Positions 9,705-27,384 of a DNA stretch of 29,107 nucleotides are shown here, piece by piece. The DNA lies in the IMG/VR virus record IMGVR_UViG_3300003841_000005, positions 128 through 29,234 of that record; one strand, given 5' to 3'. The notes below the pieces were generated by a model that had not been told where the DNA came from, did not search any database, and saw nothing but the letters and a program-made list of their open reading frames with translations. This stretch comes from a virus. Within the stretch, counting starts at the first letter, position 1, and each line of letters starts with the position of its first letter. Made by a program: the position numbers and the translations under genes.

Positions 9705-9732
9705 CCGCTCCTTTACGGGGCGGATTTTTATT
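9705..9732 (+). terminator. Intrinsic terminator at the end of the early operon
   Basis: CCGCTCC (9705-9711) pairs with GGGGCGG (9717-9723), seven pairs with one G-T, loop TTTAC, followed by ATTTTTATT. It stands about 310 bases after the last early gene and 41 before the next gene. Confidence 0.8.
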
Positions 9733-9773
9733 ACTAATAGAAAACTAATGGCTTATCAATGAGGGGTGGGAAC

Positions 9774-10208: not shown

Positions 10209-10213
10209 AACAA

Positions 10214-10236
10214 GTCGCTCATATAGAGCGGCTTTT
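10214..10236 (+). terminator. Intrinsic terminator
   Basis: GTCGCTC (10214-10220) pairs with GAGCGGC (10226-10232), loop ATATA, followed by TTTTAATTTT. It lies six bases after the stop of the gene at 9774. Confidence 0.8.
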
Positions 10237-11067: not shown

Positions 11068-11259
11068 GACACGTCTGAAAACAAATTCTAAGGGGTCATA
11101 GAGGGATTTTGGTTCTCTACCTTCCAAAGACATATCCAAGCCCTGAAAAGGGGGAGGGGGGTCAAATTCTTGGGAGCCTTTGGGCGATAGACCGCGTGCC
11201 CCTTTATTCGCGTAAAAATTCGTTTTATGAAATTTTCGGGGTTTTAGGAGGTGAACCCG
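11068..11259 (+). other. Non-coding region before the small terminase, candidate cos site
   Basis: No gene is seen in these 192 bases. They contain a purine-rich tract (GGGGGAGGGGGGTC, near 11150-11163), a GGGC ... GCCC dyad (near 11180-11201) and an AT-rich stretch with AAAATTC/GAAATTTT symmetry (11213-11237). In HK97-like cos phages the packaging site lies between the HNH gene and the small terminase. The overhang cannot be read from sequence alone. Confidence 0.4.
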
Positions 11260-11883
11260 ATGGGACGGAATAACAAACCGATTGGTTTGCACCTCGCTGA
11301 GGGGAATCCGAACCGACTTACGAAAGAACAAATTAAGCACCGTCAGGAAGCAGAAATCAAACTCGGAAAAAGTGATCTCGACAAGCTGAAACCCCCGCCG
11401 TTTGTGAAGTCTGACGTGAATGCATACTCCTGTTGGAAGAACTGTATGAAGGAATATAAAGAGGCTGCAAAGCAAGGGATTGACCTTTTAACAAGTTCGG
11501 ACGTCGGATTGCTGGCAATGTATTGTAGAACTTTTTCGGAGTATGAAAAGCTGCTAAACAAATATCAAAAACTCGAAAAAATTGCAATAGATGATTACGT
11601 TTTTGAAGAATATTTCGAGGCATTGATAGCGAAGGCTGATGCGAATGAAGTTGATATAAATGAATACGGACTCCGTGCTCAGAAATATCTATCTCAGCTC
11701 GCGTCGATGGAAGGTGTTCTGAAAATCGAGACAGCCGTCAACAAGAAAATGGACATGCTGCTCAAAATGCAAGATAGATTATTCTTGAACCCACTGTCAA
11801 AAGTTAAAAACGTTCCTAAGCCAAAGAAAGATGATAAGCCACCAAGCAAATTTAATAAGTTCGGGGGCGGGCGAGGTGTCTAG
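11260..11883 (+). CDS. terS: Terminase small subunit, P27 family
   Basis: 207-aa small terminase that recognises phage DNA and loads it on the large subunit. The family opening GRNNKPIGLHLAEGNPNRLTK is present, followed by the helical core (AYSCWKNCMKEYKEAAKQG; LLAMYCRTFSEYEKLLNKYQK) and a basic, Pro-rich C-terminus (VPKPKKDDKPPSKFNKFGGGRG). AGGAGGTG (11246-11253) fits ATG 11260; GTG 11251 lies inside that signal. Its last bases overlap the likely GTG start of the large subunit. The HNH gene and candidate cos region lie just upstream. Confidence 0.92.
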   Translation: MGRNNKPIGLHLAEGNPNRLTKEQIKHRQEAEIKLGKSDLDKLKPPPFVKSDVNAYSCWKNCMKEYKEAAKQGIDLLTSSDVGLLAMYCRTFSEYEKLLNKYQKLEKIAIDDYVFEEYFEALIAKADANEVDINEYGLRAQKYLSQLASMEGVLKIETAVNKKMDMLLKMQDRLFLNPLSKVKNVPKPKKDDKPPSKFNKFGGGRGV

Positions 11884-13633
11884 CTCGCAGATTTACCCAT
11901 ACAACACGGTTCAAGAGCTAGATCGGGTCACTGCTTACGCTCATGAGGTGGTTTCGGGCAGGATCATCGCTGGGCAAACGCAGCGACAGGCGTGTGAACG
12001 GCATTTAAGAGACTTAGAGCGGCAAGGAACAGAAGATTTTCCGTACTATTTCGATCCAGACAAAGCCCATGAAATCATAGAATTTGCCGAGTCCTTGACG
12101 CTTGCAGAAGGTGAAGAACCGGAGCCACTCAAATTATGGGGCTTCCAAGACTTCATTTTTGGTAGTTGGAATGGTTGGTTGAAGGAAGATGGGTACCGAA
12201 GATTCCGAACTTCATACGTTCAAGTGGCTCGTCAAAACGGTAAATCCTTGGGGAATGCTGTTCCATCGCTGTTTTATGGAAACTTTGATGGATACAACTA
12301 CCCTCAAATATATTGCGCTGCGACAAAAGAGGATCAGGCGCGAATTGTGCTCAAGGAATGCCTGAAATTCATAAATGCCGATCCTGAGCTTGGTGGAACT
12401 AAGTACGAAGAAGGGCTTTTCACTTCCAAGGAATATAAGAGTACGATTCTTTGTAACATCACACGTGGGGAAATAAAAGCGATAGGTCGAGATACCGAGA
12501 CGATAGACGGTTTCCGGCCTTATTTTGCGTCCGTCGATGAATATCACAAGCATAAGACCAACCAAATGTACAAGTTGCTTACGGGCGGACAACGCAAGCT
12601 GAAACAATGCCTGACTTCGATCATCACAACAGCTGGATTCGACTTGAATTTACCGTGCTATGAAGAATATGAGTACGGAAAAATGATCTTGGCCGGACTT
12701 CATGCGGACGAAACCCATTTCGTCTTTATCTGCGAACTGGATAAAGGGGATGACATTTGGGACGAAGCAAACTGGCCGAAAGCTAATCCACTTTGGACTG
12801 AGGAAACGCTCACTAGCTTACGAACCGACGCCATAAAGGCGAAGAAGAAACGCGGCGCGGATCTTCGCGATTTCATGACAAAGGCTCTTAATATATGGGT
12901 ACAATTCGCAGATAACCAGTACATGAACATGGAACATTGGAAAAAATGCGAATCTGACACCACGTTGGAAGCAATGCGCGGACGAGAATGTTATCTCGGA
13001 CTCGACCTGTCATCTGGTGGCGACTTAACATCTGGTTGCTTGGAGTTTCCGTTAGACGACGAACCGCACCGGAAATATTATGTTCACTCGCACAGCTTCA
13101 TACCAGCAGCAAGGGTTGACGATCATGTACAGTCTGATGGCGCACCTTATGATATGTGGATCATGGAAGACTTGATTACTATCACCGAGACACTCGGCGG
13201 CGTGAAGACGGATTATAAATATATCATCCGGTACTATAAAGATTTGATCAAAAAATACGATCTGAAGCTCAAAGGCATCGCATATGACCCTCATAATGCG
13301 GATGCCTTTTTATCTGACCTTGAAGAATTTGGCGTGGATTGTGTAGAAATCATCCAAAGTGCGCGAAGTCTTAACGATGCTACCGAAGATTTTCGGCTGG
13401 AAGTTGAAGCGGGTAACGTGAGTTACGACCGAACCAATAAGCTGCTGACGTGGTCAATGGTCAACGCCAAAACAGTTAGCAATAGTTTCGGAGAAATCAA
13501 GATCGACAAAGATCCGAAAGCCAAGACAAGACGGATCGACCCTGTGGATGCAGTGATCAATGCACACAAGCTATGCATGGCAAACAAAACGAAGCGTTCC
13601 GTGTACGAGGAGAGAGGCGTGCGGACAATTTGA
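11876..13633 (+). CDS. terL: Terminase large subunit
   Basis: 585-aa packaging motor. The ATPase domain has the Walker A-like VARQNGKS (117-124) and Walker B YFASVDE (216-222). The nuclease domain has GLDLSS (Asp377), AYDPHNA (Asp471) and RIDPVDAVINA (Asp555, Asp558), matching metal-binding acidic residues. This is the Terminase_1 (YmfN-like) type linked to HK97 phages. I choose GTG 11876, which overlaps the small-subunit stop, because relatives begin about 15 residues before the AYAHEVVSGRI segment; ATG 11831 would run far into terS. A terminator-like hairpin lies inside the nuclease coding region (13274-13311). Confidence 0.96.
   Translation: MSSSQIYPYNTVQELDRVTAYAHEVVSGRIIAGQTQRQACERHLRDLERQGTEDFPYYFDPDKAHEIIEFAESLTLAEGEEPEPLKLWGFQDFIFGSWNGWLKEDGYRRFRTSYVQVARQNGKSLGNAVPSLFYGNFDGYNYPQIYCAATKEDQARIVLKECLKFINADPELGGTKYEEGLFTSKEYKSTILCNITRGEIKAIGRDTETIDGFRPYFASVDEYHKHKTNQMYKLLTGGQRKLKQCLTSIITTAGFDLNLPCYEEYEYGKMILAGLHADETHFVFICELDKGDDIWDEANWPKANPLWTEETLTSLRTDAIKAKKKRGADLRDFMTKALNIWVQFADNQYMNMEHWKKCESDTTLEAMRGRECYLGLDLSSGGDLTSGCLEFPLDDEPHRKYYVHSHSFIPAARVDDHVQSDGAPYDMWIMEDLITITETLGGVKTDYKYIIRYYKDLIKKYDLKLKGIAYDPHNADAFLSDLEEFGVDCVEIIQSARSLNDATEDFRLEVEAGNVSYDRTNKLLTWSMVNAKTVSNSFGEIKIDKDPKAKTRRIDPVDAVINAHKLCMANKTKRSVYEERGVRTI
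13274..13311 (+). terminator. Terminator-like hairpin inside terL
   Basis: GGCATCGCAT (13274-13283) pairs with ATGCGGATGCC (13296-13306) with one bulged G, followed by TTTTT. It encodes part of the conserved AYDPHNADAF nuclease motif. Activity is untested. Confidence 0.45.
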
Positions 13634-13640
13634 CTCTGGA

Positions 13641-14951
13641 ATGGAGGTGAAAACACTGAGGATTCCTTTTATTTCACGACTGTTTGAGAGACGCAGCGGC
13701 GAAACCAGCAACCTTAGTAACCCGAAGCGCTGGTTATATAATGCGCTCGGGATTCCTTACGGAAACAAAATAATTGTTACAGAAAGTACGGCCATGCGGT
13801 CTACGGCGGTTCTGACATGTGTTCGAATCCTCGCTGAAACGGTGGCATCCCTCCCCTTGCCGGTCTATAAGCGTTTAACTCCGAGGGGGCGGGAGCGGGT
13901 AAGCCACCGGATCGGAGATCTGCTGCAGCGTTCCCCGAACCCGAGGATGACAGCATTCACTTTTCGAGAAACGATGATGACCCACATCCTACTTTGGGGA
14001 AACTGTTACGCTGAAATTGAGTACGACGACCGCGGGGAAATCAAGGCATTGTGGCCGATCCCACCCCATCGCGTAGAGCATATGGAAACAGAGAGCGGCG
14101 ACCCGTTCTTTAGGGTGACAACGCCGGACGGAAAACAGCACAATGTTCCTTTTTACGCGATGTTCCATATTCCTGGTCTTGGATTTGACGGAAAAAAGGG
14201 AATTTCCGTTATCCAATGGGCTAAAAAAGCAATTGAACTTTCACTAGCTACGGAACAATTCGGGGCGGAGTTCTTCGAGAATGGAACAAACGTAGGCGCC
14301 GTTGTCACGCACCCCGGGTCATTATCAGATTCAGCTTTTGAACGATTGAAAAAATCGTTGAAAGAAAAATATGAGGGTTTGGGGAAATCACATCGTCTCA
14401 TGTTGCTTGAAGAGGGAATGACATTCGCAAAGAACAGCATTCCACCGAATGATGCACAGTTTTTGGAAACACGGAAATTTCAAATTCTTGAAATTGCTCG
14501 CCTCTTCCGTGTGCCGCCGCATTTGATGGCCGATTTGGAACGGGCTACATTCTCAAACATTGAACAACAAAGCACAGATTTTATCATTCATTCGGTTCGT
14601 CCTTGGTTAATACGCTGGGAGCAAGCGATTAGCTGGAAGCTGTTCAGCGCGGCAGAACAAAAGCGTTTATATGCTGAGTTTCTAATCGAGGGATACCTTC
14701 GGGGAGATTCTTCGGCGCGGGCTGCTTTCTATAAAGAAATGTTTAATCTTGGGGCATTTTCTCAGAATGACATTCGAGAAAGAGAGAACGAAAACCCAAT
14801 TCCGGGCGGGGATCGATATTTCGTACCGCTAAACATGATTCCATTGGATATCTTGGACGAGTATTACAAAGGGAAGCTCACACCAGACAAAGGAGGTGAT
14901 AACGAAAATGGACAAGGAAAAGGAGCAAAGGGAACTACTGGTTCCGAGTAA
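13641..14951 (+). CDS. Portal protein, HK97 family
   Basis: Portal protein of about 435 aa forming the ring through which DNA enters and to which the tail attaches. Family features include AMRSTAVLTCVRILAETVASLP, GNCYAEIEYDDRG, FHIPGLGFDGKKGISVI, and FQILEIARLFRVPPHLMADLE before EQQSTDFI. The conventional start is ATG 13641. However, GGAGGTGA (13643-13650) directly follows that ATG and is correctly spaced for CTG 13656 (opening MRIPFISRLFERR), and nothing resembling a ribosome-binding site precedes 13641. The 3' end overlaps the protease gene by 44 bases. Confidence 0.95.
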   Translation: MEVKTLRIPFISRLFERRSGETSNLSNPKRWLYNALGIPYGNKIIVTESTAMRSTAVLTCVRILAETVASLPLPVYKRLTPRGRERVSHRIGDLLQRSPNPRMTAFTFRETMMTHILLWGNCYAEIEYDDRGEIKALWPIPPHRVEHMETESGDPFFRVTTPDGKQHNVPFYAMFHIPGLGFDGKKGISVIQWAKKAIELSLATEQFGAEFFENGTNVGAVVTHPGSLSDSAFERLKKSLKEKYEGLGKSHRLMLLEEGMTFAKNSIPPNDAQFLETRKFQILEIARLFRVPPHLMADLERATFSNIEQQSTDFIIHSVRPWLIRWEQAISWKLFSAAEQKRLYAEFLIEGYLRGDSSARAAFYKEMFNLGAFSQNDIRERENENPIPGGDRYFVPLNMIPLDILDEYYKGKLTPDKGGDNENGQGKGAKGTTGSE

Positions 14952-15525
14952 TAAGCCTGAAATCAGAAGAGCGGACGGCGAACCGGCCAAAATTGTCGGT
15001 TATGCTGTTCGATGGGATCAATTATCACATCCGATATTCGGAATGTTCCAGGAACAGTTCAAACGGGGGGCTTTTACTAAAAGTCTTGTGAATCCAGATG
15101 TTTATGCTTCTTGGCAACACGATTCCAGAGAAATCCTCGGCCGTACCCCAAACACATTGCAATTGTTCGAGGACGATATTGGATTGCGGTATGAAATAAC
15201 ACCGCCGAATTGGGCGGAAAAACACATTGAGACGATCGAGCGCGGGGACGTGCGGGGATCGTCTTTTATTTTTCGCTCGCTTGTCGAGGAATGGGACGAG
15301 ACAAACTCAGATATGCCGATCCGTTCCGTTATCGAAGCAGAGTTGTACGAAGTAAGTCCAGTCACAACACCGGCATATCCGCAATCAAGTGTCGGAATCA
15401 GATCAGCGGAAGAAGTATTTCAATCTCGCAATAGTAAAGACGACGATTCCGATTTTACGGAGGAAGAAATCGATCTTATCATGCTGCAGCATGAAATGCG
15501 CATGAATAAGATCAAAACACTTTAA
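14908..15525 (+). CDS. Prohead protease, HK97 family
   Basis: 205-aa serine protease that cleaves the capsid scaffold during head maturation (family U35 type). It shows IVGYAVRWDQLS (29-40), FKRGAFTKSL, catalytic His71 in WQHD, and Ser118 in DVRGSSFIF, then EVSPVTTPAYP. AAGGAGGTGAT (14890-14900) fixes the start at ATG 14908. The acidic C-terminal tail (DDDSDFTEEEIDLIMLQ) is probably scaffold-like. It lies between portal and capsid, the standard order. A terminator-like hairpin lies over the codons before the catalytic serine and the serine itself (15230-15273). Confidence 0.94.
   Translation: MDKEKEQRELLVPSNKPEIRRADGEPAKIVGYAVRWDQLSHPIFGMFQEQFKRGAFTKSLVNPDVYASWQHDSREILGRTPNTLQLFEDDIGLRYEITPPNWAEKHIETIERGDVRGSSFIFRSLVEEWDETNSDMPIRSVIEAELYEVSPVTTPAYPQSSVGIRSAEEVFQSRNSKDDDSDFTEEEIDLIMLQHEMRMNKIKTL
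15230..15273 (+). terminator. Terminator-like hairpin inside the protease gene
   Basis: AGACGATC (15230-15237) pairs perfectly with GATCGTCT (15257-15264). The 19-base GC-rich loop may fold further. TTTTATTTTT follows (15264-15273). It codes for ETIERGDVRGSSFIF. Confidence 0.45.
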
Positions 15526-15540
15526 AAGGGGATGAATCAA

Positions 15541-16770
15541 TTGAAAAATTTGATCGAACTTAGAAAGAAACTTGCAGCTAAAAAAGATGAGATGCGCTCG
15601 CTTGTTGCAGCAGCCCAAGGAGAAAAACGAGGCTTTAGCGACGAAGAGGAAAGGAAATATACAACGCTAGAATCAGAGGCAGAAGCGTTGGAGGCAGAGA
15701 TCAAGCTCGAAGAAAGAGCGCAGCAACTTGCCATGGGTGGGACTGGAACAACGCGTACAGCCGATGATCCGCAACATGAACCTGAATTCCGCAATCTAGG
15801 GGAGATGATCTCCACTTATCGAAAAGACCCGTATGACCCACGATTAAGTGAATACCGCGAACTGGCGATGAAAACAAAGGCGTCGGGTGGTATCTTTGTT
15901 CCTCCTAAATTTTCGGCGCAGTTATTTGAAGTCGAGCCGGAACAGGCTATTGTCCGTCCAAGAGCATTGGTTATTCCAGCAGATGAAGACGCTCCAGACG
16001 CAGATCTTACTTTCCCTGCTCTCGATCAAGGGGCTGGCTCCAATATGTATGGCGGGGTAGAAGTAAACTGGATCGGCGAGGGTGATGAGAAGCCGGAAAC
16101 AAACGCAAACTTTAAGGATCTGAACTTGAGTCCTAAAGAAGTTGCAGGTCATATCATTGTGACGGACAAACTGCTTCGTAACGCCCCGGCTGTGAATGCA
16201 ATTGTGACACGGTTATTCCGTGGTGCGATTGCTGCGGCGGAAGATGATGCATTCCTTTATGGCACAGGGGTTGGGAAGCCGTCCGGAGCTGTGAACTCGG
16301 CTGCATCCATTACGGTTCCGCGTAAAACGGCGAACCTTATCACTTATCAAGATATCGTGAACATGTTGGCAAAGGCGAAACTCGGCGGAAGCCTTGTATG
16401 GTCAGCCTCTCAATCTATCTTACCGCAATTGTTAACAATGCGAGACGAAGCGGGAAATCTAATCTATCAACCAAACATCGCGAATGCTATGTCTGGTTTC
16501 TTGCTTGGATACCCAATCAAGTTCACTGAAAATTCTCCGACACTCGGGAGTGAAGGTGATCTGGTTCTATCTGACTTTGGGTATTACGTGATTAAAGATG
16601 GTTCAGGAATCTTCATTCACGCTTCAGAACATCCGTTATTCAGACAAAACAAAACCATCATCAAGGCATTTTGGAATGTCGATGGTAAGCCATGGGTAAG
16701 CGCACCGTTTAAATTGAAAAATGGATATGAAGTATCGCCATTCATTAAATTGGGTGTACCAAAGCCATAA
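15541..16770 (+). CDS. Major capsid protein, HK97 family
   Basis: 409-aa capsid subunit. Residues 1-75 are a charged coiled-coil scaffold (delta) domain (LIELRKKLAAKKDEMRSL; EERKYTTLESEAEALEAEIK) removed by the protease. The fold proper starts near EFRNLGEMI, with GGIFVPPKFSAQL, the E-loop region, VTDKLLRNAP, and the AEDDAFLYGTGVGKPSG signature. AAAAGGGG (15524-15531) abuts ATG 15532, so that ATG cannot be used at normal spacing; TTG 15541, nine bases on, gives MKNLIELRKK, as in relatives. A hairpin follows the gene. Confidence 0.95.
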   Translation: MKNLIELRKKLAAKKDEMRSLVAAAQGEKRGFSDEEERKYTTLESEAEALEAEIKLEERAQQLAMGGTGTTRTADDPQHEPEFRNLGEMISTYRKDPYDPRLSEYRELAMKTKASGGIFVPPKFSAQLFEVEPEQAIVRPRALVIPADEDAPDADLTFPALDQGAGSNMYGGVEVNWIGEGDEKPETNANFKDLNLSPKEVAGHIIVTDKLLRNAPAVNAIVTRLFRGAIAAAEDDAFLYGTGVGKPSGAVNSAASITVPRKTANLITYQDIVNMLAKAKLGGSLVWSASQSILPQLLTMRDEAGNLIYQPNIANAMSGFLLGYPIKFTENSPTLGSEGDLVLSDFGYYVIKDGSGIFIHASEHPLFRQNKTIIKAFWNVDGKPWVSAPFKLKNGYEVSPFIKLGVPKP

Positions 16771-16784
16771 ATTTAAAAATCCAA

Positions 16785-16806
16785 GGCTCGGCGTAACCGT
16801 CGAGCC
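16785..16806 (+). other. Hairpin after the capsid gene
   Basis: GGCTCG (16785-16790) pairs with CGAGCC (16801-16806), and inner GCG pairs with CGT around a TAAC loop: nine pairs with one G-T. No T tract follows, so it more likely protects the capsid mRNA 3' end or marks a processing site than terminates. Confidence 0.55.
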
Positions 16807-16827
16807 TATTAGAAAGGAGATAAAGCC

Positions 16828-17106
16828 ATGGAAGCAAAAGACACAAAACTCTACCATGTCATATCTGACTTCGTCGATTCACAAACAGAGGAACTTGTGT
16901 TAGCAGGCAGTACATTCGAGATCCACGACGAAAGAGTGCAAGCATTTCGTGATGCTCAAGTGATCGGGAAAGAAGTGTCAGCAGAACCGGAAACGGCTAA
17001 GGATGACGGTAAGGGCGAACAAGCAGCCAAAGACAATAAAGTCGATAAGAAGGACAAAAAAGCAGCTAAGGAAACAAGTGGTGATCCTGATGCTGGCGAC
17101 GCTTAA
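16828..17106 (+). CDS. Small post-capsid protein with a Lys/Asp-rich tail
   Basis: 92-aa protein directly after the capsid gene, with AGAAAGGAGA before the ATG. Residues 1-50 form a short folded domain (LYHVISDFVDSQTEELVLAGSTFEIHDERVQAFRDAQVIGKEV). The rest is low-complexity Lys, Asp and Ala (AAKDNKVDKKDKKAAKE). Proteins of this layout follow HK97-type capsid genes in several Bacillota phages and may be head-associated, but no function is shown. It overlaps the connector gene by 17 bases. Confidence 0.65.
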   Translation: MEAKDTKLYHVISDFVDSQTEELVLAGSTFEIHDERVQAFRDAQVIGKEVSAEPETAKDDGKGEQAAKDNKVDKKDKKAAKETSGDPDAGDA

Positions 17107-17626
17107 TGCAGCAAAGAGGTACATGGGCATTGCAGAAGACAACCATTCAATGGATTTAGATATCGTTGGTGCGTTGCAGGCAGCGACGGCTGTTATAGAG
17201 CGCGAAACAAAACGGAGCTTTGAAAAGAAAGTGTACAGGCAAGTGATCGACGGATCAGGAACACAGCATATACAACTTCGAAATTATCCGATTCATGAAG
17301 TTACTAAGCTCCTGGTATGTGACAAGTCGATTGATTCAAATAGCTATACCATCGAATCAGAATACGGAATGCTCTTCAAGCGCTCAGGGTGGCCGTGCGG
17401 CGCTCGCCTAATCGAAGTTGAGTATTTAGCCGGATATGTATTGCCGAGCGACGAGCAAGGAGCAGAGCCGTCAACATTGCCGAAAAATATCGAACTTGCT
17501 TGTGCTCTATTTGCACAAATATTATTGCGCAATCCTGGTGTGAAATCGGAACGCGTCGGGGATATATCGGTTACTTATGAGGATGGAGAACTGCCAGCAG
17601 CAGTAAAATCCCTCATTCGTCTGTGA
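17090..17626 (+). CDS. Head-tail connector protein (gp6/YqbG-like)
   Basis: 178-aa connector that extends the portal for tail joining. The opening LNAAKRYMGIAED ... LDIVGALQAATAVIERETKRSF is the DNA-packaging connector helix pair. The middle VYRQVIDGSGTQHIQLRNYPIHEV and VEYLAGYVLP, and the ending NIELACALFAQILLRNPG, fit the Phage_connect family. ATG 17090 is in frame inside the end of the previous gene, with a GTGGTGAT signal upstream; the frame stays open to 17003 but those codons shadow the neighbour. The order connector, then neck genes, is standard. Confidence 0.85.
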   Translation: MLATLNAAKRYMGIAEDNHSMDLDIVGALQAATAVIERETKRSFEKKVYRQVIDGSGTQHIQLRNYPIHEVTKLLVCDKSIDSNSYTIESEYGMLFKRSGWPCGARLIEVEYLAGYVLPSDEQGAEPSTLPKNIELACALFAQILLRNPGVKSERVGDISVTYEDGELPAAVKSLIRL

Positions 17627-17635
17627 GGTGATAGG

Positions 17636-18103
17636 GTGGCTAGAAGAAGAACAAGAACTCGTCGCGCTAACGTTGAAACCACAGAGGATTCATTCTTGTC
17701 CGAGCTGCTGGCAAACCTTCAGGATCTTGCTCAACATGAGGTGCATATCGGGATGCAAGGAAATGCAGAGCTAGCAATGATAGCAGGTGTTCATGAATAC
17801 GGATCACGTAAGATGAACATACCTGCACGGTCATTTATCGGGACGGGAAAGAAAAAATCAGCGACGCCAATCGGGAAGGTTGTCCGTGGTGCGATTACCG
17901 ATGTCGCACATGGTAGGAAGTCCGTTTCTTCTTTGCTGTCTGAGGTAGGGGAAACTGGCAAGGAGAAAGTTATAAAGAACTTCGACCGGATACGCACGCC
18001 ACCGCTATCGGCAATCTATGCGCGTCGGAAGTCCGGGCGTAAACTGTTGGTGCAGGAGCAGGATTTGAGGGACTCAATTAAATATGTGATTGTGCGGAAG
18101 TAG
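17636..18103 (+). CDS. Phage virion morphogenesis / tail completion protein
   Basis: 155-aa protein of the HK97 gp10 / phage virion morphogenesis type, acting at head-tail joining. Diagnostic pieces are HEVHIGMQGNAELAMIAGVHEYGSRKMNIPARSFI (about 34-68) and a C-terminal LVQEQDLRDSIKYVI. The N-terminus is strongly basic (ARRRTRTRRANV). It starts at GTG 17636, with GAGGTGATA seven bases upstream. It lies between the connector and the neck genes. Confidence 0.82.
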   Translation: MARRRTRTRRANVETTEDSFLSELLANLQDLAQHEVHIGMQGNAELAMIAGVHEYGSRKMNIPARSFIGTGKKKSATPIGKVVRGAITDVAHGRKSVSSLLSEVGETGKEKVIKNFDRIRTPPLSAIYARRKSGRKLLVQEQDLRDSIKYVIVRK

Positions 18104-18111
18104 GAGGGGCT

Positions 18112-18456
18112 ATGAAATTTCGGTTTGCTTCATTGCTGCAGAAGTACAATGTGCCATATATATTGGTTCGAACTGTTGACGGACATCGCGATGATGACGG
18201 TATTTGGATTCCGGAGAAGCCGCAACGCGTGCAGCTCATGGGACATATCCAACCTATCAGTTCGGAACTCAAACAGGACGAACCAGGGAGATACACGACG
18301 GAAGATAGAATGCTATTTACTACATATAAGCATTCTGCCGGCGAAGTCGTGGAATGGAAAGGGGTGCAATTCACAGTGTCCGCACCTGATGAACGCAATT
18401 ATAGCGACATTAACCAATACGTTATCAAGAAGGTGGTCGCCCATGGTTCCATTTAA
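18112..18456 (+). CDS. Probable head closure / neck protein, 114 aa
   Basis: Small beta-rich protein (VPYILVRTVDGHRDDDGIWIPE; VQLMGHIQPISSEL; GEVVEWKGVQFTVSAP), with TAGGAGGGGC before the ATG. Size, beta content and position between the connector and the tail terminator agree with head-closure or head-tail joining proteins of the YqbH/gp16 kind, but I do not recognise a signature. The last 14 bases overlap the next gene. Confidence 0.65.
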   Translation: MKFRFASLLQKYNVPYILVRTVDGHRDDDGIWIPEKPQRVQLMGHIQPISSELKQDEPGRYTTEDRMLFTTYKHSAGEVVEWKGVQFTVSAPDERNYSDINQYVIKKVVAHGSI

Positions 18457-18919
18457 AAAGATCCGTTCGGCCATAGTTCGAGGCTTAAAGGCTCAAGTAA
18501 ATCTACCTGTTATTGAGATGAACGGGGGCGGCGATGTACCGGAAGGCGCATTCATGACATATCACTTTCCTGATGGATTCGGTGAGCCTTCAAGCCAACC
18601 GATTATTGAACAGGAAGGGAACATACTACGACAGATTGAGACGGTCAACTTCACCGTCTCTTTTTTGTCTTATGCCGATGATTCCGCAATCTCAATCGAA
18701 AATGCAATGAAGGCATGTGATTGGTTTAAGGGAGCGGGACACGAAGCATTGAAAGATGCCGTGAATGTCGTGGTTGTACAGGTTGGTGCGATTGAAAACC
18801 GCGACATCGTTATAGCAGAGGTATGGGAACGCAGATGCGGCTTTGAGGTTGAGTTCCGGACATTGGATGTGGTTGAAACGGAACTCGTCACGATCAACAC
18901 AACAAATATAAGGGGATGA
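18443..18919 (+). CDS. Tail/neck terminator protein (LIC_12616-like)
   Basis: 158-aa protein resembling the LIC_12616 / gp12 neck-terminator family that caps the tail tube before head joining. Features: VPFKKIRSAIVRGLKAQ, then GAFMTYHFPD, IETVNFTVSFLSYADDSAIS, DWFKGAGHEALKD and RRCGFEVEFRTLDVVETE. ATG 18443 lies inside the end of the previous gene, with AAGGTGGT upstream; the longer frame up to 18125 is a shadow. An 8-bp hairpin with T6 is embedded at 18638-18666. The sheath gene follows. Confidence 0.82.
   Translation: MVPFKKIRSAIVRGLKAQVNLPVIEMNGGGDVPEGAFMTYHFPDGFGEPSSQPIIEQEGNILRQIETVNFTVSFLSYADDSAISIENAMKACDWFKGAGHEALKDAVNVVVVQVGAIENRDIVIAEVWERRCGFEVEFRTLDVVETELVTINTTNIRG
18638..18666 (+). 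terminator. Terminator-like hairpin inside the neck terminator gene
   Basis: GAGACGGT (18638-18645) pairs perfectly with ACCGTCTC (18653-18660), loop CAACTTC, followed directly by TTTTTT. It encodes ETVNFTVSFL. By sequence alone it is a textbook intrinsic terminator. Confidence 0.6.
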
Positions 18920-18924
18920 AGCAT

Positions 18925-19932
18925 TTGGCAGTTAAAGGCGATGTTGATGTAATCATTGAGATGCAGCGGCCAACACCAAAGCTTGGGTTCGGGAAACCGC
19001 TTATCATCGGATCGAGCACAGCGGGTCAGGCGTATAAAAATTATGCCGATCTTGAAGCAGTAAAGGCCGATTTTGACATCAAAACAGAAGAATATAAGGC
19101 GGCGCAAGCTATTTTTGCACAGGATAACGCCCCGGCAGAGATAGCGATTATGTGCCGTAAGACGGACGCGACACCACAACCTTTATCGGAAGTAATGGCC
19201 GAAGCACTCAAACGCGACTGGTACTTTGTTGTTCCTACTAGCGAGCTTGTAGCCGATATTACAGCAATTGCCGATGCAGTGGAGCAGGACGGAACCCGGC
19301 AGTTTGTCGCATGTACAAGTAAAAAAACGGATCTTTCAACGATCAAGAAAAAGGGATACAAACGAACGACAATCTTCTATCACGCAGATCCAACAAGTTA
19401 TCCAGATGCCGCATTGGTTGGCGCTGTGGGATCGTTAGATGTTGGTTCGGTAACGTGGAAGTTCAAAAATTTGAAAGGAATCGTACCGCTTGATATCGAC
19501 ACAACGGAAATGAACGAGATCCACGATCTCGGAGCCATTACCTATGTAACGAAGGCGGGAGATGCCCAAACGAGCGAAGGTAAAACGGTAAGTGGTGAAT
19601 ATATCGACATTATCCATTCGCGGGATTACTTAGTTTCCAGCATCTCTTACGCCGTGCAAAAGCTATTTAACAGAAGCGACAAAGTGCGTTATGACAATGT
19701 GGGCATTTCCATGATCGAGGGCGAAGTTAGAACCGTCCTAAAACGCGCCGATATGAACGGCATGATTGCGCACGATGATGACGGATTGCCGATCTATTCC
19801 ACATCGTTCACCACGCGGGCGCAGGTTGATCCTGCGGATCGCGAAAAGCGCGTTTACAATGGCGGCACGTTCGAATTCGAACTAGCAGGTGCAATCCACC
19901 AGACCAAAATCAAGGGCATTATCAAGCTATAA
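18925..19932 (+). CDS. Tail sheath protein (DUF3383-type)
   Basis: 335-aa contractile sheath protein. The start VKGDVDVIIEMQRPTPKLGFGKPLIIG, a central YADLEAVKADF ... AAQAIFAQD, and the C-terminal FTTRAQVDPADREKRVYNGGTFEFELAGAIHQTKIKG match the compact sheath family found in many Bacillota and proteobacterial myoviruses. AAGGGG abuts ATG 18916; TTG 18925, nine bases on, is better spaced, just as for the capsid gene. It follows the tail terminator and precedes the tube gene. It proves a contractile tail. Confidence 0.92.
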   Translation: MAVKGDVDVIIEMQRPTPKLGFGKPLIIGSSTAGQAYKNYADLEAVKADFDIKTEEYKAAQAIFAQDNAPAEIAIMCRKTDATPQPLSEVMAEALKRDWYFVVPTSELVADITAIADAVEQDGTRQFVACTSKKTDLSTIKKKGYKRTTIFYHADPTSYPDAALVGAVGSLDVGSVTWKFKNLKGIVPLDIDTTEMNEIHDLGAITYVTKAGDAQTSEGKTVSGEYIDIIHSRDYLVSSISYAVQKLFNRSDKVRYDNVGISMIEGEVRTVLKRADMNGMIAHDDDGLPIYSTSFTTRAQVDPADREKRVYNGGTFEFELAGAIHQTKIKGIIKL

Positions 19933-19945
19933 GGGAGGTTAGGGC

Positions 19946-20341
19946 ATGAAGACAGGAACATATGATGCAAGAGAGCTAACCGTCACGATAGGCGGCGTGT
20001 ATCTCACTGGATTTAGTGAAGATATGTGCGAGTTTGAGAAAGACGAAGACAACTACGAGGTGAAGGTCGGCGCAACAGGGGATGTAATGCGCTCAAGAGT
20101 GAACAACCCTCTTGCTACGCTGACCGTTACGTTGCTTCCGACAAGTCCACAAGTCGCATATTTGGACAAGTTGGCGAAGACGGGGCAGTTAGTGCCGGTA
20201 TCGATCATCTACAACGGAACACCGAAGGAAACGATCACAGTCAGCGAAGCATTTGTCAAAAAGCCTGCAGGCCGAACATATGGCAGTGAGGGCGAGGATC
20301 GAGAATACGAAATTAGCTGTCTCGATCATGACATGAACTAA
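19946..20341 (+). CDS. Tail tube protein (DUF3277-type)
   Basis: 131-aa inner tube subunit. The opening GTYDARELTVTIGGVYLTGFSEDMCEFEKDEDNYEVKVGATGDVMRSRVNNPLATLTVTL and the ending REYEISCLDHDMN fit the DUF3277 structural family paired with DUF3383 sheaths. It has AAGGGAGGTTAGGGC before the ATG, 13 bases after the sheath stop. Tubes polymerise around the tape measure protein inside the sheath. Confidence 0.92.
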   Translation: MKTGTYDARELTVTIGGVYLTGFSEDMCEFEKDEDNYEVKVGATGDVMRSRVNNPLATLTVTLLPTSPQVAYLDKLAKTGQLVPVSIIYNGTPKETITVSEAFVKKPAGRTYGSEGEDREYEISCLDHDMN

Positions 20342-20376
20342 ACTAAACCGACAAAATCAAGGGAGAGATAAATATT

Positions 20377-20682
20377 ATGACAAACTTTAAACAGAAAAAT
20401 TTCACTTCAAAAAGCGGCAAGAAATACGTGTTCCAGCATCCAGGTGTTCGAATGGTATCCAAGATTAATGACGCCAGCAAGAATAAACATGGCGTAATGT
20501 CAGAGGAGCGGCTGTCAGAAGAGATGTTGAAGCATGTTATCGTCGATCCAAAGATGCGAATCGACGATTTTACAGGCTATCGGGAATATAGCGAAGTAGT
20601 CAACGCAGCATACGCCTTCATTTCCGGTTTGGACGGTGAGGAAGATGTCGATCAGCAAGGAGGAGGCACAACGGAGGGCTAA
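20377..20682 (+). CDS. Tail assembly chaperone, first frame
   Basis: 101-aa protein in the gpG/XkdN position between tube and tape measure; such proteins coat the tape measure during tail assembly. It has an N-terminal beta stretch (KNFTSKSGKKYVFQHPGVRMV) and helices. It ends in a Gly-rich segment (QQGGGTTEG) that looks like the tail of a frameshift region. The 83 bases 20600-20682 overlap an open second frame. AAGGGAGAGATAA precedes the ATG. Confidence 0.75.
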   Translation: MTNFKQKNFTSKSGKKYVFQHPGVRMVSKINDASKNKHGVMSEERLSEEMLKHVIVDPKMRIDDFTGYREYSEVVNAAYAFISGLDGEEDVDQQGGGTTEG

Positions 20683-20836
20683 GGAAAGATGGTCACAGTG
20701 GCGATTGCTATTGTCAGACATGAACATTTCTTATGCCGACCTAATGCTTATGGATGATGATGATATTGCTGAGGCTAACGCCGCCTTAGACATCTACATA
20801 AAGCAGCAGGAATCACAAATGAAATCCAAGAAATGA
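20645..20836 (+). CDS. Tail assembly chaperone, second frame (gpGT-like extension)
   Basis: It is read in the next frame from 20600 onward (stop at 20597). The conserved part, RWSQWRLLLSDMNISYADLMLMDDDDIAEANAALDIYIKQQ, is typical of the short T-type half of tail chaperones. It could start at ATG 20645 (weak GGTGAGGAAG signal) as a 63-aa protein, at GTG 20636, or be made as a +1 or -2 frameshift product of the gene at 20377. The ending MKSKK abuts a terminator. Confidence 0.65.
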   Translation: MSISKEEAQRRAKERWSQWRLLLSDMNISYADLMLMDDDDIAEANAALDIYIKQQESQMKSKK

Positions 20837-20856
20837 GCGCCTTCGGGCGCTTTTTT
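20836..20856 (+). terminator. Intrinsic terminator before the tape measure gene
   Basis: AGCGCC (20836-20841), loop TTCG, GGCGCT (20846-20851), with TTTTTT at 20851-20856. It is a perfect stem with a stable UUCG loop. It overlaps the stop of the chaperone frame and lies 22 bases before the tape measure start, in the middle of the late operon. Confidence 0.85.
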
Positions 20857-20878
20857 GCTTGGTAAAGGAGGAATGTAG

Positions 20879-23215
20879 ATGGCGGGCGGCATCATTGGAA
20901 ACCTCATGTTTGCGGTTGGATTCAAAGTGGCGGATAAGGCCATAAGGGATGCCGACAAACAGTTAATTGGCCTAAAAGCTAACTTTGGTCAAGTTGGTAT
21001 TGCCGCAGCCGCAGCCGCTGCAGCAGTAATCGGGGTCGGTGCTGCCAGTTTACACGCAGCTTCCGAATTAAAAACTTCGATGTCAGCTATACAAATGGCG
21101 ACCGGAGCCACGAACGAACAGATGGAAGTCACGGAGAAAGTGGCTAAGAATCTATACAGCCAGAACTTCGGGCAAGACTGGAACGACCTAGGCAGCAGTA
21201 TAGCCACCGTGCAACAGATCACGGGGCAAGCGGGTGATTCATTAGAAGAAACCACGCGTGACGCGCTTTTATTGCGTGATGCCTTCGGCATTGAAATCAA
21301 AGAGTCGGCACGGGCTGCCAAGACGATGATCGAAAACTTCGGGATATCGTCCAAAGAAGCATTCAACCTTGTTGCCCAAGGAACACAACAAGGGTTGGAT
21401 TTTAGTGGTGAACTAATTGATACCATAAATGAATATTCGTTGCAGTTTAAAGCCCTTGGCTTTACTGCTGACGACATGTTTAACACAATGGCGTCTGGAG
21501 CGAAAGAAGGCGCTTTTAATCTAGATAAAGTGGCCGACGCAGTAAAGGAGTTCGGTATCCGCACAAAGGATGCCGGAGATTCCGGGGCTGTTGAAGCATT
21601 TGAAATGTTGGGTCTGAACGCTGAACAAATGATGGGCACATTTGCAGCAGGCGGGGCAAATGCCAAAAAAGCTTTCACTCAAATTATCAATATGATTGAA
21701 GATATCGAAGATCCAGTTGCACAAAATACAGTGGCCGTCAGTCTATTCGGCACACAATTTGAGGACTTGCAAAAAGATGTAATCGTGGCAATGGGACATG
21801 TCGAAAACAAGTTCGATATGACCAAAGACTCAATGGGGGAATTAAACAAGATTAAGTTTAACAAGCCCGGAGAAGCGTTTTCCATGTTCCAACGGCAGCT
21901 AGAAACTGGATTATTGATTCCGATAGGTGAAAAATTGCTGCCATATCTGACTCAATTCGGACAATGGCTGTCAGACAATCAAGGTCAGATTGTGGCGATA
22001 GGGCAAGCGATTGGTGATTATATCGGCCAAGCGTTGACAACGATTGCTGAAAAGGCGAAGGAGGTTTACTCATTTGTCTCGGACAACTGGCCGACTATTA
22101 AGGAAACAGTAATCGGATTGGGAACAGCAGTTGTTGCGCTTAAAGCTTCCTTTGCAGCCATGACAATCGTCAGCACGATTAATAAATTGTTTAGAGCATT
22201 CCGCACAGGCACATTGCTGGCGACAGTGGCGCAGTGGGGGCTTAACACTGCCATGCTGGCAAACCCCATGACATGGATTGCTGTGGGTATAGCTGCTGTT
22301 ATTACAGGCATTGTCCTGCTCGTCCGAAATTGGGACATAGTCAAGGCAGCAATGGCACGGTTTTGGAATTGGACAAAGGGTGTCTTCGGACAAATTGGCT
22401 CTTGGTTTAGTCAACGCTTTAACGAGGCGGTCAATGGAATAAAATCCGCATGGTCTACCGTTGTGTCATGGTTTTCGGGAATTTGGGAAGGGATCAAAGG
22501 TATATTCGCCTCTGTAGGGGAATGGTTCGGCTCTGTATATTCAGCAGCTGTTGCAGCAATTCAGGCGGTATGGTCAGGCGTTTCTTCGTGGTTTTCAGGC
22601 GTGTGGGAAGGAATAAAAGGCATATTTGCGACAGTTGGGGATTGGTTCGGCAATGTCTTCACGGGCGCATATGAAGGGATCAAAACTGCATTCGGTGGGC
22701 TGAAAGACTGGTTTAGTGATTTGTGGACAGGGATAGAAAGTATGTTCAATGGGTTCATAAACACGATCATCAAAGGCATGAACTTCATGATCAACGGAAT
22801 AAACAGCGTCAGCTTCGACATCCCAGACTTTTTTGGTGGAGGCACGTTTGGGGCTAACATCCCGAATATTCCTATGCTTGCAAAGGGCGGGATTGCAACG
22901 GGTCCTACATTAGCAATGATCGGTGAAGGAGCCGAAAGTGAGGCTGTGCTTCCACTGTCAAAACTCGAAGGCTTACTAAATAAACCAAGAACTATGGAGC
23001 AAGCGAAACCAACAGCTCCAATATTGGCTCCAGCAAGGGCGGTAAGCGGCGGACATAGCACAATCGACATCAATATGAATGTGAAGACGGAAGGCGCTGG
23101 AGCTAATGCAACGTTAGGTCAAGGGGCGGCGGATGCCTTGAAAATTCAACTCCAGCAGATAATTGAAAGCGCGATGCGTCAGTTAGGGCTTTCCGGCAAC
23201 GTGGAGGTGACTTGA
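20879..23215 (+). CDS. Tail tape measure protein
   Basis: 778-aa protein that sets tail length and is ejected with the DNA. An N-terminal alanine-rich hydrophobic stretch (GIAAAAAAAAVIGVGAASL) precedes the TP901-type core (LKTSMSAIQMATGATNEQMEVTEKVAKNLYSQNFG; AFNLVAQGTQQGLDFSGELIDTINEYS). Hydrophobic segments lie near 440-480 (MLANPMTWIAVGIAAVITGIVLLV). Trp-rich tandem repeats (about 531-610) follow, then a Gly/Pro linker and the common end motif GEGAESEAVLPLSKLEGLL. AAAGGAGGAATG precedes the ATG. The usual rule of about 0.15 nm per residue would give a tail near 115 nm; this is an estimate. Confidence 0.95.
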   Translation: MAGGIIGNLMFAVGFKVADKAIRDADKQLIGLKANFGQVGIAAAAAAAAVIGVGAASLHAASELKTSMSAIQMATGATNEQMEVTEKVAKNLYSQNFGQDWNDLGSSIATVQQITGQAGDSLEETTRDALLLRDAFGIEIKESARAAKTMIENFGISSKEAFNLVAQGTQQGLDFSGELIDTINEYSLQFKALGFTADDMFNTMASGAKEGAFNLDKVADAVKEFGIRTKDAGDSGAVEAFEMLGLNAEQMMGTFAAGGANAKKAFTQIINMIEDIEDPVAQNTVAVSLFGTQFEDLQKDVIVAMGHVENKFDMTKDSMGELNKIKFNKPGEAFSMFQRQLETGLLIPIGEKLLPYLTQFGQWLSDNQGQIVAIGQAIGDYIGQALTTIAEKAKEVYSFVSDNWPTIKETVIGLGTAVVALKASFAAMTIVSTINKLFRAFRTGTLLATVAQWGLNTAMLANPMTWIAVGIAAVITGIVLLVRNWDIVKAAMARFWNWTKGVFGQIGSWFSQRFNEAVNGIKSAWSTVVSWFSGIWEGIKGIFASVGEWFGSVYSAAVAAIQAVWSGVSSWFSGVWEGIKGIFATVGDWFGNVFTGAYEGIKTAFGGLKDWFSDLWTGIESMFNGFINTIIKGMNFMINGINSVSFDIPDFFGGGTFGANIPNIPMLAKGGIATGPTLAMIGEGAESEAVLPLSKLEGLLNKPRTMEQAKPTAPILAPARAVSGGHSTIDINMNVKTEGAGANATLGQGAADALKIQLQQIIESAMRQLGLSGNVEVT
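22469..22708 (+). repeat. Tandem 120-base repeats in the tape measure gene
   Basis: Two units start at 22469 and 22589, each encoding WFSG-WEGIKGIFA-VG-WFG and a helical linker, 40 residues per unit. A degenerate unit precedes (GSWFSQRFNEAVNGIKSAW) and one follows (LKDWFSDLWTGIESMF). Tryptophans fall at regular spacing. Duplication here may alter tail length. Confidence 0.75.
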
Positions 23216-23742
23216 TGCCGAAAATTAACGGGCATAGCATTTGGGTAGAGACAGAGGATTTAGGCTTTGAAGTTGACATCACTACGCAGCCTGTAGAAAA
23301 AGATATCGACATGACCGACCACGTTCAGAGACGGGCAAGAACAATGAGCCTTACAGGGGCAGTGGTCGGGTCTTCAGCAGCAAAAACACGTCAATTTTTG
23401 CAAAACGCTCAAGATAAAGGGCTTATCGTTAAGTACGTTGGACGTAATGCTTTTACGGGGCTGTTGTCTGGTCTATCGACATCCCACGATTATAAAATTT
23501 CTGATGGATTCAATTTCACGCTGACAATGGTAGAGGTTCGCACTGCAAAGTCAAGTTATGTAGACAAACTACCTGCACCGATAAAGGCGCAAGCAGTAAA
23601 AATCGTGAACAGTGGTACGAAGCAAACAAAGAGCAAGGATAAAAAGGGTAAAGGCAAGGGCGGCAGCAAAGGAAGCAAAAAGGAAAAAGAGAAAGTTGAG
23701 AAAGTAAAATTCAAGAAGGGCAGTCCATGGGAGGAGAAGTGA
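23215..23742 (+). CDS. Baseplate hub-tube adaptor (XkdP-like without LysM)
   Basis: 175-aa protein after the tape measure. The N-terminal 110 residues (KINGHSIWVETEDLGFEVDITTQPVEKDIDMTDHVQ; LTGAVVGSSAAKTRQFLQNAQDKG; LSTSHDYKISDGFNFTLTMVEVRTAKS) match the adaptor that links tube and hub. XkdP-type relatives carry a C-terminal LysM domain. Here it is replaced by a lysine/glycine-rich tail (TKSKDKKGKGKGGSKGSKKE) ending KFKKGSPWEEK, perhaps a LysM remnant. GGAGGTGA precedes ATG 23215, which overlaps the tape measure stop. Confidence 0.75.
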   Translation: MPKINGHSIWVETEDLGFEVDITTQPVEKDIDMTDHVQRRARTMSLTGAVVGSSAAKTRQFLQNAQDKGLIVKYVGRNAFTGLLSGLSTSHDYKISDGFNFTLTMVEVRTAKSSYVDKLPAPIKAQAVKIVNSGTKQTKSKDKKGKGKGGSKGSKKEKEKVEKVKFKKGSPWEEK

Positions 23743-24062
23743 TGGACTATATCGAGATAGAAAAGGATCTTATTCCGTATCGTTTTGACATTTCACTTGC
23801 GGATACAATGTACACCTTTGAGGCTCATTACAATGCTGAACACGACTATTTTACTGTTGATTTGGAGCGGGATGGCGAGGTGTTGGTTGTTGGTGAAAAG
23901 TTGGTATATGGAGCGGTATTGTTCGGCGATGTTTGGGACAATCGTTTCCCGGATGTGGCGATAATCCCCTATGATGAATCAGAAAATAGTAATGCAGTTA
24001 CATGGGACACTCTTAACGTGAGTGTCTTTTTGTTTTTGATAGAAGGTGATGACGATGAGTAA
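23742..24062 (+). CDS. Baseplate plug protein
   Basis: 106-aa beta-rich protein of the baseplate plug family (formerly a DUF in XkdP-XkdQ gene pairs). It shows YIEIEKDLIPYRFDISLADTMYTFEAHYNAEHDYFTVDL, GEKLVYGAVLF, NRFPDVAIIPYDES and VTWDTLNVSVFLFLIEG. ATG 23742 overlaps the previous stop (TGATG) with GGAGGAGAAG upstream. The last codons contain a terminator-like hairpin (24006-24037). It is thought to fill the hub channel. Confidence 0.85.
   Translation: MDYIEIEKDLIPYRFDISLADTMYTFEAHYNAEHDYFTVDLERDGEVLVVGEKLVYGAVLFGDVWDNRFPDVAIIPYDESENSNAVTWDTLNVSVFLFLIEGDDDE
24006..24037 (+). terminator. Terminator-like hairpin inside the baseplate plug gene
   Basis: GACACTC (24006-24012) pairs with GAGTGTC (24020-24026), loop TTAACGT, followed by TTTTTGTTTTT. 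It encodes DTLNVSVFLFL at the 3' end of the gene, about 18 bases before the next start. Confidence 0.55.
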
Positions 24063-24843
24063 CTTTGGAAGGCTTGTTGAAGTCATGACGGCCAACATGA
24101 AATTCAGTTCGAAGGATTACAACATAGAGGGAACGATCCCTTTCGACGACGATCCATTGCCGAATGAGTCCGAAATTAAAATCTGGAATCTATCGGACAA
24201 GACGCTGAACAACATTAAAAAAGGTAAAGTCCTTATGTTGAACGCGGGATATGAGAAGGATATCGGTCTGCTGCTTCATGGATACATTTCCAAGGTGCAG
24301 ACGGTATGGGAGGGTGTCGATAAGATCACTAGCATTTTTGTTCTGGATAGTGAGGATTTATCCAAACGGGTAATAAAAGAGATTGCGTTTGCGAAAGGAA
24401 CACTGGCAAGCAAGATTATAAAGCAGATGGCTGGATACATCGGATTGCCAATTGCACAAATGGATCTTAACCAAGATTACCGATACCAGGATGGCTACTC
24501 AGCCAAAGGAGCGGTAACCGAAGTAATCCAAAAGGTTGCAAAAGATTGCGGGACTAGCGTTTATATCAATAAAGGAAAACTGTATGTTCGCTCTTTACGG
24601 CGAGGGGCTGACAACAGATTCAAATTGAATAAGGATACTGGGTTGATCGGTGTTCCGGCACCGTTTGAACAGGATGGATCTAAGGGATTCAACATAGTGT
24701 CGCAGCTTCAATATAGAATCACTACGGCATCCGTTATTGATCTCGAAAGCCGCGCCTTTACCGGAAGGCTACATGTCCGCAGCGGGACACATACGTTTAG
24801 CCGGACGGGAGACTTTACGACCGAAATGGAGGCGATTCTATGA
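24055..24843 (+). CDS. Baseplate hub protein (XkdQ/gp27-like)
   Basis: 262-aa hub protein that joins tail tube to spike. Signs: FGRLVEVMTANMKFSS and IEGTIPFDDDPLPNESEIKIWNLSDKTLNNIKKG (barrel domain 1), LLHGYISKVQTVWEGVDKITSIFVLDSE, then GTLASKIIKQMAGYIGLPIAQM and an ending with NIVSQLQYRIT. ATG 24055 follows GAAGGTGAT; two upstream in-frame starts (24046, 24049) fall inside that signal. It overlaps the spike gene by four bases (ATGA). Confidence 0.85.
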   Translation: MSNFGRLVEVMTANMKFSSKDYNIEGTIPFDDDPLPNESEIKIWNLSDKTLNNIKKGKVLMLNAGYEKDIGLLLHGYISKVQTVWEGVDKITSIFVLDSEDLSKRVIKEIAFAKGTLASKIIKQMAGYIGLPIAQMDLNQDYRYQDGYSAKGAVTEVIQKVAKDCGTSVYINKGKLYVRSLRRGADNRFKLNKDTGLIGVPAPFEQDGSKGFNIVSQLQYRITTASVIDLESRAFTGRLHVRSGTHTFSRTGDFTTEMEAIL

Positions 24844-25226
24844 GAGTTGATCCGGCGGGCGCTATGGCGCGTATGGTTCGAGCGATTAAGGATGATGTCT
24901 CGGCGAGTCTAAGTGTCGGGATGCCGTGCAAGGTAATTAAATTCGACGCGGCAACCTGTCTCGCAGATATCCAACCACTCATACGGACGAGCGAGGATGA
25001 ACCTGCCGTACTGCAAAGTATCCCTGCACTTGGACAGCGATTGCAGATTGACGGTAGCGAGAAAGTTTGCAAGCCAGCACTGAAAGCTGGAGACGTCGTG
25101 TTTGTGGTATGTGCGGATCGCGAGATACGAAACGCCATGACAGGGAGTATCTCCAGCGCCGACAGCGGCCGTATGCACGACCACAACGATGCCGTGATCG
25201 TGGGGGTGTTTCCTTGCAGTCTTTAA
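24840..25226 (+). CDS. Baseplate spike, Gp138 N-terminal domain (XkdR-like)
   Basis: 128-aa protein of the Gp138 membrane-puncturing spike group. It shows GMPCKVIKFDAATCLADIQPLIRT, IPALGQRLQIDG, LKAGDVVFVVCADREIRNAM and the typical GRMHDHNDAVIVGVFP close. Short versions like this hold only the OB-fold platform without a long beta-helix. ATG 24840 overlaps the hub stop, with GGAGGCGATT upstream. It should sit below the hub and pierce the envelope during contraction. Confidence 0.85.
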   Translation: MRVDPAGAMARMVRAIKDDVSASLSVGMPCKVIKFDAATCLADIQPLIRTSEDEPAVLQSIPALGQRLQIDGSEKVCKPALKAGDVVFVVCADREIRNAMTGSISSADSGRMHDHNDAVIVGVFPCSL

Positions 25227-25573
25227 AACTGGTTAATGGAGATATAACCTTTGAAAACGGCGAGCTAGTCATAATCGAAGGCGGCGAGGAATTGGCACAG
25301 TGTTGCCGCGTTGGATTAGGTACTAATAGCGGAGAATGGTTCCTTAATCCAGAGCTAGGAATCGAATTCATGTTATTCCTAGACAAGAATCCGAATGAGG
25401 AAGAAATGCGGGACGAACTTATGCGTGGGCTGCTGCAAGAGGAACGCATACAGACCATTGAAGACGTTCAATTCAGCGTTGACCATAAGGCTCGAACGAT
25501 GACCATTTCTTTCACGGCCATGAGTGTCAATGGTGAGAAAATCGAGGAAAGGGGGATTGAACTTGCTCGATAG
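25214..25573 (+). CDS. Baseplate wedge protein (gp25/XkdS-like, DUF2634)
   Basis: 119-aa wedge protein. NGDITFENGELVIIEGGEELAQCCRVGLGTNSGEWFLNPELGIEFMLFLDKN is the DUF2634/gp25 signature, followed by the IQTIEDVQFSVDHKARTMTISFTA strand pair. The start is TTG 25214 with GGGGGTG upstream; no ATG fits, and the longer frame shadows the spike gene. It overlaps the spike gene by 13 bases and baseplate J by 11. With baseplate J it forms the sheath-start platform. Confidence 0.88.
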   Translation: MQSLKLVNGDITFENGELVIIEGGEELAQCCRVGLGTNSGEWFLNPELGIEFMLFLDKNPNEEEMRDELMRGLLQEERIQTIEDVQFSVDHKARTMTISFTAMSVNGEKIEERGIELAR

Positions 25574-27373: not shown

Positions 27374-27384
27374 GAGGGAAGCTC

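Follow-up and report, generated by a model that had tools for sequence, protein, structure and literature searches.

The late operon of the phage analysed here carries terminator structures both within and between its genes, and it is probably read through by processive antitermination mediated by an RNA element of the EAR class at its head. The window, a 29,107-nucleotide stretch of an IMG/VR virus record, contains early genes followed by a plus-strand late operon running from terS to the tail fibre gene (11251..28845, +; gene families and tblastn synteny). It holds terS, terL, portal, protease, major capsid protein (MCP), connectors, neck, sheath, tube, two chaperones, tape measure (TMP), LysM, plug, hub, baseplate and fibre, some of these names being assigned by position only; the neck gene is Pfam Phage_tail_terminator_9 and the plug gene Pam3_gp18. 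The relatives of the phage are prophages of Paenibacillus and Brevibacillus. A tmRNA (ssrA) match at 5-369 overlaps the end of a large serine recombinase ORF (330-1862, minus strand), and the prophage seems to have integrated at the tmRNA gene.

The first-pass annotation had pointed out five coding-strand hairpins with T tracts within the late operon, and all five are present where it placed them. They lie in terL near codon 493 (13272..13311, +; a bulged stem of about -17.2 to -18.7 kcal/mol, z -4.6), in the prohead protease gene near codon 124 (15229..15273, +; about -21.6 to -22.1 kcal/mol, z -5.3), in the neck or tail terminator gene near codon 73 (18638..18666, +; -13.0 kcal/mol, z -3.3), between the second tail chaperone and tape measure genes (20835..20856, +; -13.6 kcal/mol, z -3.0) and in the baseplate plug gene around codon 100, close to its 3' end (24005..24037, +; -13.4 kcal/mol, z -3.8). 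The stems had been called mostly perfect, which is right for the neck site, a perfect 8-bp stem followed by T6, but not for terL and the protease, where a bulge or internal loop interrupts them; a perfect-stem scan misses these two sites, which are recovered once bulges are allowed. Scanning and folding show two further terminator-like hairpins ahead of the structural genes, one just downstream of the EAR (9705..9723, +) and one after the ORF at 9759-10208 and before the packaging genes (10212..10234, +), a gap in which many relatives have similar hairpins. According to the scans and folding, the sites have the make-up of intrinsic terminators, namely a stable hairpin with a U tract immediately after it on the transcribed strand.

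Such structures are more frequent than the coding sequence would lead one to expect. In a scan that allowed bulges (dG <= -10, tail n >= 3), with 200 codon shuffles of the late coding sequence as controls, the plus strand had 9 sites against 1.44 in the shuffles, none of which reached 9, and the minus strand of the late genes had 6 against 3.44 (P 0.155). With perfect stems and strict cut-offs the counts were 2 against 0.10 on the plus strand and 0 against 0.09 on the minus strand. The first-pass annotation had held that the hairpins exceed chance without a matching minus-strand series, and had proposed a both-strand scan with codon-shuffled genes as the check; run in this way, the counts are unequal and the excess is confined to the coding strand, though a few minus-strand hairpins exist. 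Strong minus-strand hairpins with U tracts also occur opposite plus-strand genes at 4017-3977 (-30.6 kcal/mol), 23596-23569 (-17.0 kcal/mol) and 6855-6824 (-15.9 kcal/mol).

The sites recur in related phages at homologous positions. Among 71 non-redundant Paenibacillus and Brevibacillus loci, clustered at 95% DNA identity, the terL codon 493 site was found in 13 of 15 relatives (0.49 expected), the protease codon 124 site in 6 of 6 (0.36), the neck codon ~73 site in 24-25 of 61 (1.1-1.43) and the plug codon ~100 site in 28-33 of 68 (2.3-4.12), where the expectation comes from shuffling synonymous codons within the gene of each relative and the counts take related phages as independent. The terminator ahead of the tape measure gene was present in 49 of about 60 loci. 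On a tree of the sheath, the state of the neck site changes at least 10 times and that of the plug site at least 6 times. In the perfect-stem scan, plus-strand sites cluster at a few homologous positions (the pre-TMP gap, plug codon ~100 and neck codon ~73) and minus-strand sites inside genes recur three times at most; when bulges are allowed, some minus-strand sites recur up to nine times. It is very improbable that this pattern reflects chance or protein constraint, that is, conserved amino acids that happen to permit a palindrome. The residues concerned (ETV..TVS in the neck, TL..SV in the plug) are themselves conserved, but the codon shuffles hold protein and codon usage fixed and still yield only 0.4-4 sites where 6-28 are observed, and relatives with similar residues in different codons do not have the structure.

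Comparable sites are found elsewhere in these operons. A separate conserved intragenic hairpin marks codon ~378 of an unrelated TerL family, in 19 of 46 cases against 1.38 expected, and this terminator (in L011, L015, L022, L044, L110, L127 and others) appears to covary. A hairpin with a U tract at codon ~294 of baseplate J, absent from the window, is present in 7 of 63 relatives (L013, L015, L021, L022, L046, L048 and L108) against 0.59 expected, with energies of -19 to -22 kcal/mol. In ten loci (L013, L015, L021, L022, L104, L109, L118, L125, L130 and L144) a terminator lies at the protease stop codon, directly 5' of the MCP region. An association of the neck hairpin with the presence of head genes (23 of 46 headed against 1 of 9 headless elements) was considered and dropped, with a Fisher p of 0.06 and too few independent pairs.

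Selection acts on the pairing itself and on the U tract. Covariation in the plug stem is 0.255, compared with 0.109 +/- 0.016 in shuffles (0 of 500) and at most 0.154 in slid controls. Its pairs 15:33, 18:30 and 21:27 join third codon positions on both sides, with alternative Watson-Crick versions seen, and the neck stem, too, pairs one third position with another. The expectation that relatives would show compensatory synonymous changes is therefore borne out in the plug by wobble-to-wobble covariation but not in the neck, where covariation alone is not significant because the stem sequence is nearly invariant; the neck site draws its support from the shuffle test and from codon choice. RNAalifold predicted no pairs on the plug alignment, probably because many rows have no stem or hold it in a shifted register, and the plug covariation given above comes from counting pairs explicitly. 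The window itself keeps the right arm but has its left arm 2 nt away from where most relatives have theirs. As to the U tract, leucine directly after the neck stem is encoded by TTR in 19 of 19 relatives with the stem and in 2 of 8 without it (p=1e-4), and the plug shows the same link of stem to T-rich synonymous codons more weakly (p=0.04). The codons next to present stems are TTT and TTG/TTA, so the stem is tied to a U tract, the signature of a terminator. We conclude that the hairpins are intrinsic terminators kept by selection, their activity being what we infer from these selected structures. Intrinsic terminators can thus be maintained by selection inside essential genes through paired wobble positions, and annotation restricted to perfect stems or to intergenic regions overlooks them.

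The same data bear on two other roles for the hairpins. They might act post-transcriptionally, on mRNA stability, processed RNA ends or translation control, and several of them do lie just 5' of the next ribosome-binding site; we regard this as improbable, since synonymous choice preserves the U tract wherever the stem is present, and the terL, protease and neck sites fall in the middle of genes, distant from any start. That the T tracts are sites of programmed frameshifting or transcriptional slippage, as an in-frame slippery T6G heptamer at the neck site might suggest, is barely conceivable and was rejected: the open length in the alternative frames past the neck tract does not exceed that of codon shuffles (+1, 15.4 against 12.6 codons; +2, 6.5 against 6.4), and the plug tract, read by hand, runs at once into a stop in the frame of the next gene.

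If the hairpins terminate transcription, the genes behind them have to be reached by readthrough. From the end of the plug and pre-TMP hairpins to the following start codon the median distance is 24-25 nt, which leaves no room for a promoter, and internal promoters after the hairpins were rejected at the plug and TMP for this reason. Between the neck hairpin and the start of the sheath gene, no synonymous-conservation peak is among the top peaks, the gene end aside. RNA polymerase of Bacillota outruns the ribosomes (PMC13323073), so that translation should not reliably mask intragenic hairpins.

A candidate for the agent of readthrough precedes the late genes. The Rfam covariance model for the EAR or epsC RNA element (RF01735), a candidate processive antitermination element, matches 9491..9610 (+) over its full length (1-117) with 41.8 bits, just under the gathering score of 42 (E 6.7e-6 in a 401-nt search). 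In L149, a close relative whose regulator is 92% identical to that of the window, the match reaches 45.9 bits and is above the gathering score, and at the homologous place in the upstream regions of 16 relatives the scores are 43.3-103.6 bits, with two more below threshold. Overall, 21 of 40 related upstream regions have the element by sequence profile and 2 divergent ones by covariance model; it was not found in the other 17, some of which may hold divergent copies or copies outside the stretch. Covariation over 20 aligned copies is 0.403, against 0.231 +/- 0.014 in shuffles (0 of 500) and at most 0.107 in slid controls. Behind the 9006-9392 gene lies a strongly folding region (z -4.6) that is conserved after homologous regulator genes. 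Where both are seen the order is constant: a regulator of the phrog_21810 type, usually about 150 nt, the EAR, and then the first late gene. That gene is HNH or terS in headed members and the neck gene in elements without head genes, which also keep the EAR region; the neck directly after the EAR argues against a role as packaging site. The element thus has the placement characteristic of its class, ahead of a long operon that contains distal intrinsic terminators. The number of terminators per locus does not correlate with its presence (4.9 in EAR-positive loci, 4.4 in those where none was found, P 0.64), and leader elements other than EAR may do the job in the latter.

Several observations surround the element. 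Headless tailocin-like elements (L035, L036, L048, L098, L124 and L102) consist of repressor, late regulator, neck, sheath and the whole tail operon, and the EAR was found in the first four and not in L124 and L102. An exact EAR core motif occurs in 53 IMG/VR stretches (L227-L279), including contigs not obviously of the window's phage family, so phage EARs may be widespread, to judge by sequence. Among 296 genomes sampled from the order to which G001 (Paenibacillus) belongs, the EAR is found in 191, with up to 4 copies each, host and prophage copies being pooled. Between the regulator gene and the EAR, repeats of TGTCTGT/TGTCGGT (9407-9447, spaced about 11-22 nt) are possible activator sites of the late promoter. 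A narrow literature search found no report of EAR in phages.

The first-pass annotation had found no obvious Q-like antiterminator, and we likewise found none before the late operon, the EAR-class RNA being found there instead; the two proteins that it proposed for the part are not supported in it. The phrog_21810 protein encoded at 9006..9392 (+) has a C-terminal half that resembles sigma region 4 in a structure comparison (Foldseek match to 3hug_E, a sigma -35-binding domain, with prob 0.94 but E 0.88); the resemblance, which is not proof, makes it a probable late transcription activator, and so points to initiation instead of antitermination. The protein of 9759-10208 matches no family in PHROGs, Pfam or NCBIfam, gives a poor model (pLDDT 63) and was dropped as an antiterminator. 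Neither protein has a Q-family match.

We propose that transcription would start at a late promoter, inferred to lie close to where the activator gene (9006-9392) ends, and that the first RNA made would fold into the EAR (9491-9610), which would act in cis on the elongating polymerase by analogy with the Bacillus subtilis eps operon. Polymerase so modified would pass the terminators at 9705 and 10212 and those of terL, protease, neck, pre-TMP gap and plug, whereas polymerases entering the virion genes without the EAR, on leaky prophage or host transcripts, would halt at them. Wobble-to-wobble pairing would let the terminators persist in coding sequence without protein change, and partial readthrough may add an effect on head-to-tail dosage. 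Late antitermination had been raised as a possible need; it has gained support from conservation, wobble covariation and the EAR-class RNA at the operon head, but the graded attenuation suggested beside it, setting the ratio of head to tail proteins, is disfavoured as a sole explanation by the conserved terminators that precede the major capsid gene.

The same fact weighs against partial terminators working without antitermination, each stopping a fixed share of polymerases and so setting the ratio of virion proteins, which we consider unlikely, if less so than the other alternatives. Terminators do lie behind the major capsid gene and behind the tube and chaperone genes in several lineages, SPP1 has predicted terminators after MCP, after the tail tube and near TMP (PMC6316719), and the native T7 terminator, which follows the capsid gene and is tuned to inefficiency, is a precedent for stoichiometric partial terminators (PMC9157156). 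Attenuators of the T7 type would lie only downstream of the most needed products; here strong conserved terminators precede MCP (terL, protease) and sheath and tube (neck), the very products most needed, and partial termination leaves the EAR at the operon head unexplained.

Readthrough mediated by the EAR has a model in the host lineage. In Bacillales exopolysaccharide operons, EAR antiterminates several distal as well as heterologous intrinsic terminators (PMC7858274, citing Irnov and Winkler 2010; PMC2864571), and a pseudoknot is reported for the class (PMC2864571). The phage element matches the same covariance-model family and fold and likewise heads a long operon with distal intrinsic terminators, as those accounts describe for eps (PMC7858274, PMC2864571); it differs in being a candidate element in prophage or headless late operons, behind a sigma-4-like regulator, and in that the terminators of the window lie inside coding sequences. 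LoaP antibiotic operons, which also belong to Bacillota, likewise have intrinsic terminators inside the operon and a hairpin in the leader RNA (PMC12691694), but they need the NusG paralog LoaP, are not phage operons and use another RNA class. The T7 gene 10/11 terminator, too, is an inefficient terminator within a virion gene operon, but a single, intergenic one for T7 RNA polymerase that serves stoichiometry (PMC9157156).

Among phages of Bacillota, the SPP1 table lists predicted terminators inside late genes at 12,009 (17.5*) and 16,711 (gene 21), and its late clusters are annotated as bounded by predicted terminators with no further late promoter (PMC6316719). The A118 record annotates a terminator after its major tail protein region, and hairpin scans find the same class of sites in the late genes of 80alpha and TP901-1. 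These phages resemble the window in having predicted terminators before scaffold or MCP, behind MCP and behind the major tail protein gene; they differ in that theirs are mostly intergenic. Internal late terminators in phages are thus not new; the evidence for selection within genes and the link to the EAR are, as far as we checked.

Late antitermination is textbook knowledge for lambda, and in HK022 the put sites antiterminate by cis-acting RNA. Like lambda Q and HK022 put, the arrangement proposed here would have phage operon terminators passed by a modified polymerase, but no Q-like protein was found in the window, the RNA is of the EAR class and the host belongs to the Bacillota. For the question of how phages of Bacillota pass the terminators of their virion operons, it offers a concrete answer, an RNA of known class in fixed order with the late regulator. 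We speculate, with less than even confidence, that in many Paenibacillaceae prophages and headless tail elements, and perhaps in other Bacillota phages, the EAR serves as a pass for the polymerase, and the conserved terminators in essential virion genes block all transcripts that do not come from the late promoter of the phage itself. Were this so, the EAR may be an old late-antitermination device of phages that host polysaccharide operons share or have borrowed. Finally, though the likeness to the neck site of the window could be chance, the Clostridioides difficile phage phiC2 (L153, 8097-8124) has a hairpin and U tract in the gene just before its tail sheath gene.
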